A stretch of DNA of 64,000 nucleotides, from contig JAMOLT010000010.1 in assembly GCA_027068915.1 (NCBI GenBank), positions 372,001 through 436,000 on the forward strand, read 5' to 3'. This document shows, in pieces, positions 4,843-8,647 of this stretch. The notes beneath the pieces are model-generated. The model saw only the letters and a program-made list of their open reading frames with translations. It was not told where the DNA came from and did not search any database. Both the position numbers and the translations under genes were made by a program. How positions within the stretch are numbered: the stretch's first letter is position 1; every line of letters starts with the position of its first letter. Source of the DNA: Sedimenticola sp. (GTDB taxonomy: Bacteria > Pseudomonadota > Gammaproteobacteria > Chromatiales > Chromatiaceae).

Positions 4843-5289
4843 TCATTGCTTGGACAACCACTCAGCAATGGTTTTCAGGTCTTCATCAGATACACCGGCA
4901 ACGATGCCTTTCATCACCATGGACTGACCGTTGCTGCGAGTGCCTGCCTTGATATCCTTCATTTGCGCCAGGGAATACTCGGCGCTCTGGCCAGCAATCT
5001 TCGGGTAGGCATCCATAATCGTGGTCTTTCCATCTGCGCCATGACAGGCTCCACAGCCTTTCGCCGCATACAAAGCCGCGCCAGGATCGGAAGAAGCGGC
5101 TGCCGATGCAGCAGGAGCGGCAGCCGGGGTGGCGGGAGCAGACGCGGCAGCCCCAGGGGCCGCTACTTTCACTTCACCCACAGGTTTAATGCGGGCCGCC
5201 ACATCATCTTCGGCAACGGCAACAGTAGCAAAACCCATGGCTGTAACAACCAGGAGAGATAGAACAGAAGGTTGGAATTTCTTTACCAC
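4843..5289 (-). CDS. Secreted small c-type cytochrome (cytochrome c5-like)
   Basis: 148 residues from the GTG at 5289, chosen because GAGGA lies 7 nt upstream and it starts a clean signal peptide (MVKKFQPSVLSLLVVTAMGFATVAVA). An ATG at 5319 in the same frame would put ten mostly acidic residues in front. After a long Ala/Pro linker comes one CGACH haem-binding site followed by GADGKTT, and a Met in MVMKGIVAGVSDEDL that could be the sixth ligand. This is a single-haem class I cytochrome of the c5/cytochrome-like type, probably a periplasmic electron carrier. The partner is unknown. Confidence 0.88.
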   Translation of the reverse strand: MVKKFQPSVLSLLVVTAMGFATVAVAEDDVAARIKPVGEVKVAAPGAAASAPATPAAAPAASAAASSDPGAALYAAKGCGACHGADGKTTIMDAYPKIAGQSAEYSLAQMKDIKAGTRSNGQSMVMKGIVAGVSDEDLKTIAEWLSKQ

Positions 5290-5594
5290 AATTATTTCCT
5301 CGAATTCGGGGTCAGACATTCACAGGAACGCCTGACAGATTAAGTCATAACTTCCTGAATCATACCACTCATCAGTGATTGAGGAAAAATGTAATCTGGC
5401 CTGTCCGCGAAAAACTACACCTGCTTCCCTGCAATCGCCAGGGCTGACAGGGCTTTCCGGCGCAACGCCCCCAAAAACCAGGCGATGCATCGCATTCAAT
5501 CGCTCAATCATGGGAAAACAGCACGATATGTTGATATAGTAAAAAGCTTATTGTCCACATTTACCGGAATACGCAGATTCGGTGCCAAATTCTC
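5290..5594. other. 305 bp divergent intergenic region
   Basis: Lies between the cytochrome start and the first methionine-rich coiled-coil gene. It contains a TATAGT hexamer at 5535-5540 that could be a -10 box for the rightward genes, but no matching -35 is seen. A 63-codon leftward frame (5320-5511) has no ribosome site or recognisable domain. Nothing else is supported. Confidence 0.4.
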
Positions 5595-6164
5595 ATGACC
5601 ACAAAAAAAGAAGCGAAGCCAGACATTATTTCTGATGAGCAGCTACTCAGAGCAAGCCGCTCGTTCGAGGCCATGATGCTCAGCCAGATTGATATATCCG
5701 CCAAGCTGGCCGATGATCTCAAGTACGCCATTCGCGTCGGCATGGCTGTGCTGGCGCTGATCGCCATTTCCATACTGGTTCTGCTGCTCACTCTGTCTTC
5801 CCAGATCAACCGCATCTCGGACGTGGTTCTGGACATGAACACCAATTTTTCCGCCGTCACCGTGCGCATGGATCAAATGAGCCAATACGTCGATTCCATG
5901 GCGAAACGGGTCGCGCTGCTGCAAACCATGGACAAACAGACCTCTGGTATGCAACAGGAAATCACCAGCATCACCACCAATATGGCGAATATGCAGAAAA
6001 CCATCAGCAGCATGGCCGGCAGAGTCACCAGTGTACGAAAATCCGTGGAAGGCATGTCGATTTCCGTCAGCCGTATGGATAACCAGGTACAGCTCATGGC
6101 GACGGATATGCAACATATGGCCAAGCCCGCACGCAGTATCAATAAAATATTCCCCCTGCCCTGA
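5595..6164 (+). CDS. Single-helix membrane protein with Met/Val heptad coiled coil (1)
   Basis: 189 residues, no recognised family. Residues 1-44 are polar, 47-67 form one strongly hydrophobic helix (AIRVGMAVLALIAISILVLL), and the remainder is a predicted coiled coil. Methionine occurs every seventh residue (112, 119, then 133, 140, then 154, 161, 168, 175), with Ile/Val filling the gaps and the other core register (137 to 165). This resembles the helical hairpins of chemoreceptors but there is no HAMP or signalling tip. The next gene, 10 bp downstream, has the same layout, so the pair looks like a tandem duplication acting as a hetero-oligomer. Confidence 0.75.
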   Translation: MTTKKEAKPDIISDEQLLRASRSFEAMMLSQIDISAKLADDLKYAIRVGMAVLALIAISILVLLLTLSSQINRISDVVLDMNTNFSAVTVRMDQMSQYVDSMAKRVALLQTMDKQTSGMQQEITSITTNMANMQKTISSMAGRVTSVRKSVEGMSISVSRMDNQVQLMATDMQHMAKPARSINKIFPLP

Positions 6165-6174
6165 GAGACAAGCC

Positions 6175-6714
6175 ATGCCACAAAAAGAAAAACGCCTGTT
6201 TGTTGATATGGTGGGACGCCTGAGCTGGGAAACCCAGCTGCACCTGGACGAGCGACGCCATCATTTCCATATCAACAAGATCTTTATCATCATCATTTCT
6301 ATGCTACTGATGATACTGGCGGCAGTGAATGTCTATTACGTTGCGGTTCTCTATGAGGATCTGAACGGCATTGTGGACAGCATGGACTCCATGCACGGCA
6401 ACATGCAAAAAGTATCCAGCAACATGGCGCATATCACGGACAATGTGAAGGAATTCGAGATCCACATGCAGCATATGGACAGTATCGTCGCAAGCACCGG
6501 CACCATGGCCACCATGATGCCCGCCATTTCCGCCAGCATGCAACAAATGGACGAGGACATTGCAGTAATGGACACGGATATGGGTAAAATGGCCAACGGC
6601 ATGCTGCATGTTGACCAGCGCTTCAAGCATATGACCCAGGGGATAAACGTGATGCGCTACCATGTGCGCGAAATCGCCCACCCCATGGGGTCCATGAATC
6701 CCTTCATGCCCTAG
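6175..6714 (+). CDS. Single-helix membrane protein with methionine-rich coiled coil (2)
   Basis: 179 residues from the ATG at 6175; earlier in-frame ATGs lie inside the preceding gene. A His/Arg-rich N-terminus (DERRHHFH) precedes one membrane helix at about residues 35-58, then a methionine-rich coiled coil: 24 of 179 residues are Met, 20 of them after the helix, mostly at 3/4/7 spacing (70, 77, 84; 125, 132, 139; 153, 160). Function unknown. Its TAG stop at 6712-6714 is formed at the end of a palindromic mobile element. Met-rich helices can bind Cu(I) or act as flexible hydrophobic interfaces; neither is demonstrated here. Confidence 0.75.
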   Translation: MPQKEKRLFVDMVGRLSWETQLHLDERRHHFHINKIFIIIISMLLMILAAVNVYYVAVLYEDLNGIVDSMDSMHGNMQKVSSNMAHITDNVKEFEIHMQHMDSIVASTGTMATMMPAISASMQQMDEDIAVMDTDMGKMANGMLHVDQRFKHMTQGINVMRYHVREIAHPMGSMNPFMP

Positions 6715-6774
6715 TGTACTGCGTTGGAAGTAAAGGCTCCCTGAAAGGGCCTTTACTTCCGACGCACTACACCG
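6711..6774. repeat. Short palindromic element at CTAG (copy A)
   Basis: A 64 bp hairpin running from CTAGTGTACTGCGTTGGAAG to CTTCCGACGCACTACACC. It supplies the TAG stop of the gene on its left and, on the minus strand, the last residues and the TAA stop (6753-6755) of the epimerase gene on its right. It shares its ends with the elements at 45577-45615 and 53796-54007. The hairpin may also act as a two-way terminator. Confidence 0.8.
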
Positions 6775-7751
6775 GTAGATCCGTTGCGATACTGGCGAAC
6801 CATTTCCGGCAGGACTTGTTCCAGGGTATAGAGCGGCGAAAACTCCAGATCCCTGACAATTTCCTGCGCATCGAAACATGCAGAACTGCGCAGGCTGTTC
6901 AGCTTTTCCCTGTTCAGCGGCATTTTCCTGCCAGTGGCTTTTTCCAGCACACTGCCGGCACCTGCTCCCAGGTTCAATAACCATTGCGGAATAACCCGGG
7001 AGGAAGGCTCCCTGCCCAGAGTCCTGCAAATCAATTCATAGATCTGTCGGGTGGAATACTGCTGTAAATCCGTAACCGTATAGGTTTTGCTTCTGCTCAC
7101 AGGCGACAGGGCAGCAAGCAGCAAACTCTGCACCACATCATCCACATGCACCAAAGAGCGCTTGTCACCAAAATCCGGCAGTGGCGGCAAGCGCCTTGCA
7201 TCGATGGCCGCCAGCATCTGTGCAATACTGCCCTGCCGGGCAAATCCGTACACGGGAGGCAAGCGCAGAACCGCCGTCTTCATGGCGCCTGCGCCTGTCA
7301 GCACCAACTGTTCAGCCTCGGCCTTGGATTGCGCATAAAGGCTTTTGCTCCCATCCAGCACCCGCGTGGAGCTGGCAAATACCAGAGACGCCACACCTGC
7401 CGCCGACGCCAGGCCCAACAAATTCCTGGTGCCCGTAACGGTAACGGCCTGATGCAGGGGATTGTTTTCCGGCTGCAAATCCGCTGCCAGGGGCGCATAG
7501 CTGGCCAGATGGAACACTGTGGCAACACCATCAAGGGCAGCTTCCAGGCCTTGTGCCTGTGCCAGATCAGCCACACAGCGCTGTGCGCCGACAGGAATAT
7601 CACCATCCCCCCGTCTGCTCATTGCACGAACCGCTACTCCCGCCGCTGCAAGAACTTCCACCAGCCGCCCGCCGATGCGCCCGCTGGCGCCTGTCACCAG
7701 TACCGGATGCGGCGGCAAGGATCGGGCAAGATCGAGCAAGCGCACCTTCAT
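6753..7751 (-). CDS. NAD-dependent epimerase/dehydratase (extended SDR)
   Basis: 332 residues from the ATG at 7751, which overlaps the GT2 stop by ATGA. The Rossmann motif GASGRIGG lies near residues 20-27, followed by DGVATVFHLAS. The active site SxxxYxxxK appears as STRVLDGSKSLYAQSK, with the YAQSK tyrosine and lysine intact. Such enzymes change the configuration or oxidation state of nucleotide sugars (UDP-glucose 4-epimerase relatives); the exact sugar cannot be read. A reading frame continues 61 codons upstream but that part overlaps GT2 coding sequence. The C-terminal residues VVRRK and the stop come from palindromic element A. Confidence 0.9.
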   Translation of the reverse strand: MKVRLLDLARSLPPHPVLVTGASGRIGGRLVEVLAAAGVAVRAMSRRGDGDIPVGAQRCVADLAQAQGLEAALDGVATVFHLASYAPLAADLQPENNPLHQAVTVTGTRNLLGLASAAGVASLVFASSTRVLDGSKSLYAQSKAEAEQLVLTGAGAMKTAVLRLPPVYGFARQGSIAQMLAAIDARRLPPLPDFGDKRSLVHVDDVVQSLLLAALSPVSRSKTYTVTDLQQYSTRQIYELICRTLGREPSSRVIPQWLLNLGAGAGSVLEKATGRKMPLNREKLNSLRSSACFDAQEIVRDLEFSPLYTLEQVLPEMVRQYRNGSTGVVRRK

Positions 7752-8647
7752 GCTCTGCCTGCCAGCTTCCTGATGCCGGAAGCCATCGCCAACAGCAAGA
7801 AACGCGCATAGATACCGGGAATGACCACCACAGCGGCAAACATGCCGCTTTCTGCTGCAAGATATTTGCGGAAATACCGCACCATGCCCCGGTGTTTGTA
7901 CCAGGAAACCCGTATCGGAGTTGCCTTGCTGCAAGCACCCTGGTGATGTATTACCTCCACCTGGGGGACAAACAGGATCTTCCAGTCATAATCCTGAAAA
8001 CGCCGACACCAGTCCAGATCTTCACAATGCATGAAATACTGCTCATCCAGCAAGCCAACTTCTTCCAGCGCAGTGCGCCTTGTCAGCATAAAGGCGCCGG
8101 AAACGGCCTCCACCAACCGAGGCTGGTCAGGCAGTGGCTGCTGATGCAAATCCACCCCTGCCTGATCGCCCTGCGCTCCCGCAGCCTTACGCAAACCGCT
8201 ACCCAGAGTAGGAAGATTGCGGCGGCAACCGCGCTGTTCACTGCCATCCGGATTAAGAATGCGGCAGCCCGCCATTCCCACCCGAGGACAAGAATGCAAA
8301 ACTCCAAGCATTTTTTCCAGGGTGTCCGGTTGCAGAATGCAATCCGGATTGAGCAACAGAAGATAGTCTCCGCTGGCTGCGCGCAGCCCTTGGTTGGCGG
8401 CAACAGCAAACCCCAGATTGTTGGTGTTTTGTATCAGTTGGATCCGGGGATGGGTTGCCTGTGCTTGCGCTGCGCTTCCATCTGCAGATGCATTGTCTAC
8501 CAGGATGACTTCAACAGGGAGGGTGCTGCCCAGAATCCCGGCAAGACTCTCCAGCAACAGTTCGCCACCATTAAAATTGACAACAACCACAGAACACCGG
8601 GGGAGTTTCGCGACGGCAGTATTGTCTGCTGCGTCAGTTTTTTCCAT
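7748..8647 (-). CDS. Glycosyltransferase family 2 (rhamnosyltransferase-like)
   Basis: 299 residues. N-terminal GT-A fold: VVVVNFNGGELLLESL, then VILVDNASADGS, NLGFAVAANQGL, LLLLNPDC as the metal-binding region, and FMHCEDLDWCRRF with the acidic catalytic pair. A C-terminal hydrophobic segment (FAAVVVIPGIYARFLLLAMA) suggests membrane association. The pattern matches the WbbL/RfbF rhamnosyltransferase group, which adds a sugar from dTDP-rhamnose or similar to a lipid-linked glycan at the cytoplasmic face. Overlaps DUF3144 upstream by 14 bp and the epimerase by 4 bp, so the three are co-transcribed. Confidence 0.92.
   Translation of the reverse strand: MEKTDAADNTAVAKLPRCSVVVVNFNGGELLLESLAGILGSTLPVEVILVDNASADGSAAQAQATHPRIQLIQNTNNLGFAVAANQGLRAASGDYLLLLNPDCILQPDTLEKMLGVLHSCPRVGMAGCRILNPDGSEQRGCRRNLPTLGSGLRKAAGAQGDQAGVDLHQQPLPDQPRLVEAVSGAFMLTRRTALEEVGLLDEQYFMHCEDLDWCRRFQDYDWKILFVPQVEVIHHQGACSKATPIRVSWYKHRGMVRYFRKYLAAESGMFAAVVVIPGIYARFLLLAMASGIRKLAGRA

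Follow-up and report, generated by a model that had tools for sequence, protein, structure and literature searches.

In this study, we analyzed a window of 64,000 nucleotides (the whole stretch of DNA under consideration) from the 2.83 Mb genome of a sulfur-oxidizing gammaproteobacterium, in which two adjacent genes, A and B, encode one-pass membrane proteins with methionine-rich helices. Together with a third group, C, they form a family that is firmly tied to sulfur-globule genes through C. The link to sulfur globules is strong for C, and from it we infer one for A-B: since the C gene lies beside globule-coat genes and A-B are sister to C, the pair probably has a part in handling stored sulfur droplets, not in copper sensing.

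In sulfur bacteria and animal symbionts, sulfur globules constitute a major store. A family of putative membrane-anchored rods genetically tied to coat proteins offers concrete genes for the study of globule placement, globule size and attachment to the membrane. In addition, A/B/C would be a natural coiled coil with Met, instead of Leu, as the conserved core residue at many positions.

Architecture of Proteins A and B

Both open reading frames, each with the single membrane helix proposed in the initial annotation, were recovered where that annotation had placed them. They are separated by 10 bp on the forward strand and comprise the following features:

5595-6164, + strand: gene A, one-pass membrane protein of 189 residues with a Met-rich helix
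5736-5798, + strand: membrane helix of A, residues 48-68, the best 21-residue hydropathy window
5802-6119, + strand: Met heptad helix of A, residues 70-175, with strict Met at 81, 92, 102, 119, 161, 168 and 175
6120-6161, + strand: C-terminal tip of A, residues 176-189, AKPARSINKIFPLP, conserved, with R180 and P187 invariant in alignment A4
6175-6714, + strand: gene B, one-pass membrane protein of 179 residues with a Met-rich helix
6280-6342, + strand: membrane helix of B, residues 36-56, from hydropathy
6358-6696, + strand: Met heptad helix of B, residues 62-174, with strict Met at 70, 73, 84, 101, 122, 136, 160 and 171
6670-6711, + strand: C-terminal tip of B, residues 166-179, EIAHPMGSMNPFMP, conserved and of the same kind as the tip of protein C, RPMSFMNAFMPW

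The start of B was taken as the ATG at 6175, near which the aligned orthologues begin; the mechanical reading frame from the GTG at 6031 overlaps A. Each protein has a short N-terminus (about 47 residues ahead of the membrane helix in A and about 35 in B), one membrane helix and then about 120 residues. An excess of Lys and Arg on the N-terminal side of this helix was present in all 71 A members and in 61 of the 71 B members; of the other ten, eight had equal counts and two the opposite bias. These counts favor an N-in/C-out topology for both proteins. AlphaFold2 models built on 47-row alignments predicted one continuous helix in each case, spanning residues 14-185 of A (mean pLDDT 84.3) and 3-174 of B (mean pLDDT 83.7), with a pTM of about 0.3 for both. 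Alignments A4 and A5 each included 46 of 50 loci plus the window protein, four apparent near-duplicates being omitted from each.

Two minor features flank the pair. A small c-type cytochrome (Pfam PF00034) is encoded on the - strand at 4843-5319, divergent from A, and is a candidate for a conserved neighbor of the pair in the window's genus. Between the end of B and a convergent epimerase-like gene, positions 6714-6772 hold a 24-nt inverted repeat, 92% complementary with an 11-nt loop, which is possibly a terminator shared by both genes.

Methionine Pattern and Its Conservation

Methionine makes up 18 of 189 residues in A (9.5%) and 24 of 179 in B (13.4%, agreeing with the 13% first reported), and its share rises to 11.7% in the part of A that starts at residue 70 and to 16.9% in the part of B that starts at residue 62. 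All 13 positions that had been quoted as heptad core positions are indeed Met, and the residue recurs with a 3.5-residue period in the extra-membrane parts of both proteins, with 14 Met among the 120 residues of A (R=0.853) and 20 among the 118 of B (R=0.750). Neither value was attained in 20,000 random placements. The same-register positions A126, A147, B118 and B146 are Ile or Val, not Met.

The suggestion that such cores are unlike Leu-dominated coiled coils held across the family. Over the last 115 residues, Met outnumbered Leu in 207 of the 209 members, the exceptions being one of the 71 A and one of the 67 C members, while all 71 B members showed the excess. The same was true of 39 of 1,329 neighboring open reading frames, a background that holds some spurious antisense frames. 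In this region, the median Met content was 12.2% (A), 13.9% (B) and 13.0% (C), against a median Leu content of 4.3%, 3.5% and 5.2%, respectively. Met in the place of Leu is thus a trait of the whole A/B/C family. Cysteine occurred in the last 120 residues of only 1 of the 209 members.

Whether Met is conserved or drifts in homologues had been posed as the decisive point, and the answer differed among columns. We compared 58 A and 55 B sequences, out of 72 distinct ones in each case, requiring both a score and a length of at least 150. Among the quoted positions, A119, A161, A168, A175 and B160 were Met in 91-98% of sequences and A133 and B153 in 81-82%, whereas A112, A140, A154, B125, B132 and B139 were often Ile or Leu. 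In A, the drifting columns counted 20 Met and 33 Ile (A112), 15 and 39 (A140) and 17 and 39 (A154); in B, they counted 16 Met and 36 Ile (B132) and 33 Met and 17 Leu (B139). The strict columns, with Met in at least 90% of sequences, also included A81, A92, A102, B70, B73, B84, B101, B122, B136 and B171, which had not been named before. B70, B73, B84, B101 and B122 were Met in all 55 sequences, while identity to the window protein dropped to about 40%. Met columns of A were more conserved than its Ile/Leu/Val columns (p=0.002); those of B were not significantly so (p=0.18). With about half of the Met columns strict and the rest drifting to Ile or Leu, Met has a special place in roughly half of the core and serves for packing in the remainder, so not every Met is needed.

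Pairing and Kinship of A, B and C

Gene A lies directly upstream of B in the same orientation in all 50 named loci of a collection searched with the B profile. This strict tandem favors a heteromer, as the initial annotation had supposed. The closest named relatives of B came from metagenome-assembled genomes called Sedimenticola sp. and from chemosynthetic symbionts. Strong matches to A and B side by side were present in 16 of 54 other genomes in the relatives sample, 11 of them from the window's genus. A search of plasmids with B gave no match.

The same profile searches found the third group, C, whose gene in the window's genome lies at G000:C10:95520-96038. Profile comparison with hhalign gave E=4.5e-16 for B-C, 1.1e-10 for A-B and 1e-6 for A-C, the last over 58 columns, and on these alignments the three are paralogues. 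In a FastTree tree, the strong members fell into one clean group per protein, with support of 0.999 for A, 0.997 for B and 0.839 for C; these groups took in 58 of 71 A, 55 of 71 B and 48 of 67 C members, and weaker members fell elsewhere. B and C have in common a C-terminal tip of the kind RPM-x2-MN-x-FMP, and both A and B display the family traits of one membrane helix, a Met-dominated heptad helix and a Pro-containing C-terminal tip.

C proteins of another class (L250-L253, L255-L257, L259) carry an N-terminal C-x2-C motif, e.g., ECGDCS, probably cytoplasmic, which was absent from the gammaproteobacterial C sequences among those listed.

Co-occurrence of C With Sulfur Globule Genes

Matches to the sulfur globule protein model (SGP) and to dsrA were sought in 370 gammaproteobacterial genomes; C was present in 83, SGP in 56 and dsrA over the cut-off in 123, the dsrA model TIGR02064 taking oxidative and reductive types together. 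C occurred in 55 of 56 genomes with SGP, the exception being G073, vs. 28 of 314 without it. Among dsrA-positive genomes, C was found in 47 of 48 with SGP and in 23 of 75 without, so sulfur oxidation alone explains C less well. Genomes with neither SGP nor dsrA had C in 5 of 239 cases, and these 5 belong to the 28 of 370 genomes that carry C with no SGP match. The Fisher values for these associations count genomes as independent, though they are related. At the family level, all 26 families with SGP have C, and nine more have C with no SGP match. C and SGP go together within families f97 (one of four members, among those listed) and f111 (two of four), and some members of f52, f110, f136 and f139 have C and lack SGP. 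Of the 55 genomes having both, at least 10 had an SGP gene no farther than 6 kb from C, one or two C places being considered per genome.

A second sample of 199 genomes of the phylum contained C in 29 genomes outside Gammaproteobacteria, of which 4 had an SGP match (one weak) and 25 had none. In G407, G410 and G413, members of another class, possibly Magnetococcia, SGP and C share a strand, with SGP upstream at a distance of less than 2 kb. Outside Gammaproteobacteria, SGP matches in genomes lacking C were seen in G578 (over the cut-off) and G556 (below it). When nine Gly/Asn-rich proteins of the other class were compared with the SGP model, two reached its score, one matched weakly and six gave no match, which suggests that the Pfam SGP model may miss relatives.

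The C Locus

Neighbors within 9 kb were surveyed in 35 C-type loci, cluster counts being approximate. An RND pump was encoded near C in about 19 of the 35, a ParA/MinD-type ATPase in about 14, a TPR-like membrane protein in about 13, a LolA-like protein in about 12, a dynamin-like GTPase in about 10 and a DUF302 protein in about 9, and an HlyD-type adaptor also appeared in several loci. The LolA-like protein had no Pfam match and takes its name from a reading of the sequence; the TPR matches of the one TPR-like protein tested were below cut-off. Secreted proteins of low complexity, with abundant Gly, Tyr, Asn or Pro, were also encoded in many C loci. Of five Trp/Gly/Asn/Tyr-rich proteins from C loci compared with PF17228 (Sulphur globule protein), four reached the score, although two of these lay precisely on the cut-off, and the fifth fell below. 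In the window's genome, a ParA-like protein is encoded between RND and C, and in L250 (G407) and L259 (G413) the order is SGP, ParA, C, with a LolA-like gene in both and an RND pump in L259. Neighboring frames came from a greedy six-frame caller, which kept some antisense frames (e.g., cluster c20, opposite the ParA-like gene), hid some real genes and recovered no C in 11 of 43 C loci.

A recurrent arrangement was seen in L078, L079, L080, L202, L207, L209, L214, L217, L223, L230, L250 and L259, comprising an RND pump, Gly/Tyr/Asn/Pro-rich secreted proteins (some of them SGP), a LolA-like protein, a ParA-like ATPase, DUF302, C and sometimes the dynamin-like GTPase. SUP05 genomes are described as lacking dynamin (PMC6509183), so sulfur storers probably do not all have this GTPase. 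Among the literature matches listed, which cover few subscription journals, none dealt with the C locus or with Met coiled coils at globules.

Distribution and Neighbors of A-B

Strong B matches (E <2e-32) were restricted to 9 of the 370 gammaproteobacterial genomes; all nine carry C and dsrA, and eight carry SGP. As A-B are paralogues of C and occur among these genomes only with dsrA and C, nearly always with SGP as well, periplasmic sulfur storage is the best reading of their distribution. No SGP gene lay within 100 kb of A-B among the SGP matches listed for the eight genomes with strong B and SGP. The window's genome carries SGP, dsrA, soxA and C, its SoxA being encoded elsewhere on the A-B contig.

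In tubeworm symbionts, A-B follow genes for SoxX, SoxA, a SoxAX-binding-like protein and a rhodanese, an order found in five loci among those listed; L096, L098 and L101 were read gene by gene. Neighbor identities were tested in L098, where SoxX (TIGR04485), SoxA (TIGR04484) and the rhodanese (Pfam PF00581) scored over cut-off and the SoxAX-binding-like protein below. Outside the sox case, the neighbors of A-B were variable in the loci listed.

A PqiA-like membrane protein is encoded directly ahead of A-B in one lineage (L065, L119, L124, L126 and L127; cluster c29). L065, in which the gene lies at 7550-8422 and matches Pfam PF04403, and L126 were read gene by gene, and L119, L124 and L127 were named from their B matches. 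Remote A/B-like pairs in L068 (G031) and L069 (G022) adjoin membrane proteins with a weak Cache-domain match.

Proposed Role and Alternative Explanations

We regard it as an evenly balanced proposition that A and B together make up a periplasmic coiled-coil rod, anchored in the inner membrane, which serves the storage of sulfur in globules. Each of the two subunits would begin with a short cytoplasmic segment, followed by a single membrane helix and a continuous helix of about 115 residues, for which 0.15 nm per residue gives a length of about 17 nm. This long helix would have a core of Met plus Ile/Val, not Leu, and end in the conserved Pro-containing tip. A-B rods may assemble side by side and project from the inner membrane into the periplasm, where their Met faces or tips would touch the coat of the globule or the surface of the sulfur, and this contact could tether, space or shape the globule compartment. 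The pair would share the role of C, form a heteromer and tether globules. We hypothesize that the Met face touches sulfur or the coat; the idea has appeal in view of the scarcity of Cys in the family, in a setting where thiols would be open to attack by polysulfides. A broader and more speculative idea, which we advance tentatively, is that the recurrent C locus encodes an undescribed machine that builds and positions sulfur globules in two classes of one phylum, with A-B as its lineage-specific accessory rods and the invariant Met as a sulfur-compatible face adhering to polymeric sulfur or the coat.

Other explanations were weighed against the same data. The proteins might belong to a general envelope scaffold of sulfur oxidizers, as a coiled-coil spacer or a partner of an RND pump or of Sox, in which Met merely packs well in a Cys-poor, sulfide-exposed periplasm and the rods take no direct part in globules. 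The RND pump in about 19 of 35 C loci, the five listed loci in which A-B adjoin soxXA, the drifting Met columns and the presence of C in 23 of 75 dsrA-positive genomes that lack SGP all accord with such a scaffold, which we nevertheless consider unlikely, because C goes with SGP among dsrA-positive genomes (47/48 vs. 23/75) and divergent Sgp proteins missed by the model could explain part of those 23. A signaling or sensory pair, anchored in the membrane as the partner of a Cache-domain protein that reads periplasmic conditions, would fit the Cache-domain-like neighbors in G022 and G031; since these pairs are remote (75-80 bits), their dCache_1 scores fall below cut-off and no Cache-like neighbor was seen beside the strong A-B pairs read, this explanation is improbable.

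The initial annotation had suggested a redox- or copper-sensing zipper. For such a methionine zipper, with silver added as a possible ligand, we found no support beyond composition, and it now seems very improbable. The composition itself would suit such a sensor, for Met is high and His stands next to Met in B (mean of 5.3 His in the last 120 residues). Against it, A members have fewer His (3.4), the strict Met columns sit on the heptad core, no copper gene was recognized in the neighborhoods read, and the C group tracks SGP genes. Five RND pumps, four beside C and one beside a remote B-like gene, were closer in score to models of the multidrug type than to that of CusA/CzcA, with every score below cut-off.

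Comparison With Known Systems

The family resembles the Sgp proteins (SgpA/SgpB/SgpC, PF17228) of extracytoplasmic sulfur storage in occurring in the same genomes and, for C, in the same locus. Sgp proteins, however, form a secreted Gly/Tyr/Asn-rich coat, whereas A, B and C are membrane-anchored helical rods by prediction and have no SGP match; PF17228 was absent from the best 25 of 49 Pfam matches of A and from all 23 of B. Four globule coat proteins are named in PMC10386293. SgpD (Alvin_2515, UniProt D3RP35) of Allochromatium vinosum is described there as located at globules, dispensable and possibly coiled-coil; it is said to have a Pro-rich repeat and a signal peptide that is cleaved off, and its gene adjoins one for a hydrophobic/amphiphilic exporter (PMC10386293). 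A and B contain 4 and 5 Pro, respectively, no P-x2-P array and about 47 and 35 residues before the membrane helix, and judged by its published description SgpD would not belong to the A/B/C family.

Neither A nor B had a Pfam/NCBIfam match over cut-off, among the best 25 of 49 matches for A and all 23 Pfam matches for B. DUF948 (PF06103) and methyl-accepting chemotaxis proteins (PF00015) are likewise one-pass proteins with long helices and gave weak profile matches. Membership of DUF948 was rejected (A 22.5 and B 17.8 bits vs. a gathering cut-off of 37.2), as was that of the chemoreceptors (B 11.4 bits vs. 34.6; absent from the best 25 of 49 matches for A), whose chemotaxis signaling part A and B lack. 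Solved structures matching the B alignment were generic coiled coils only, such as designed bundles, chemoreceptors and trimeric adhesins. The M domain of SRP54/Ffh is also Met-rich, its Met providing a flexible surface for varied nonpolar ligands; its likeness to A/B is one of analogy only, the M domain being globular and cytoplasmic.
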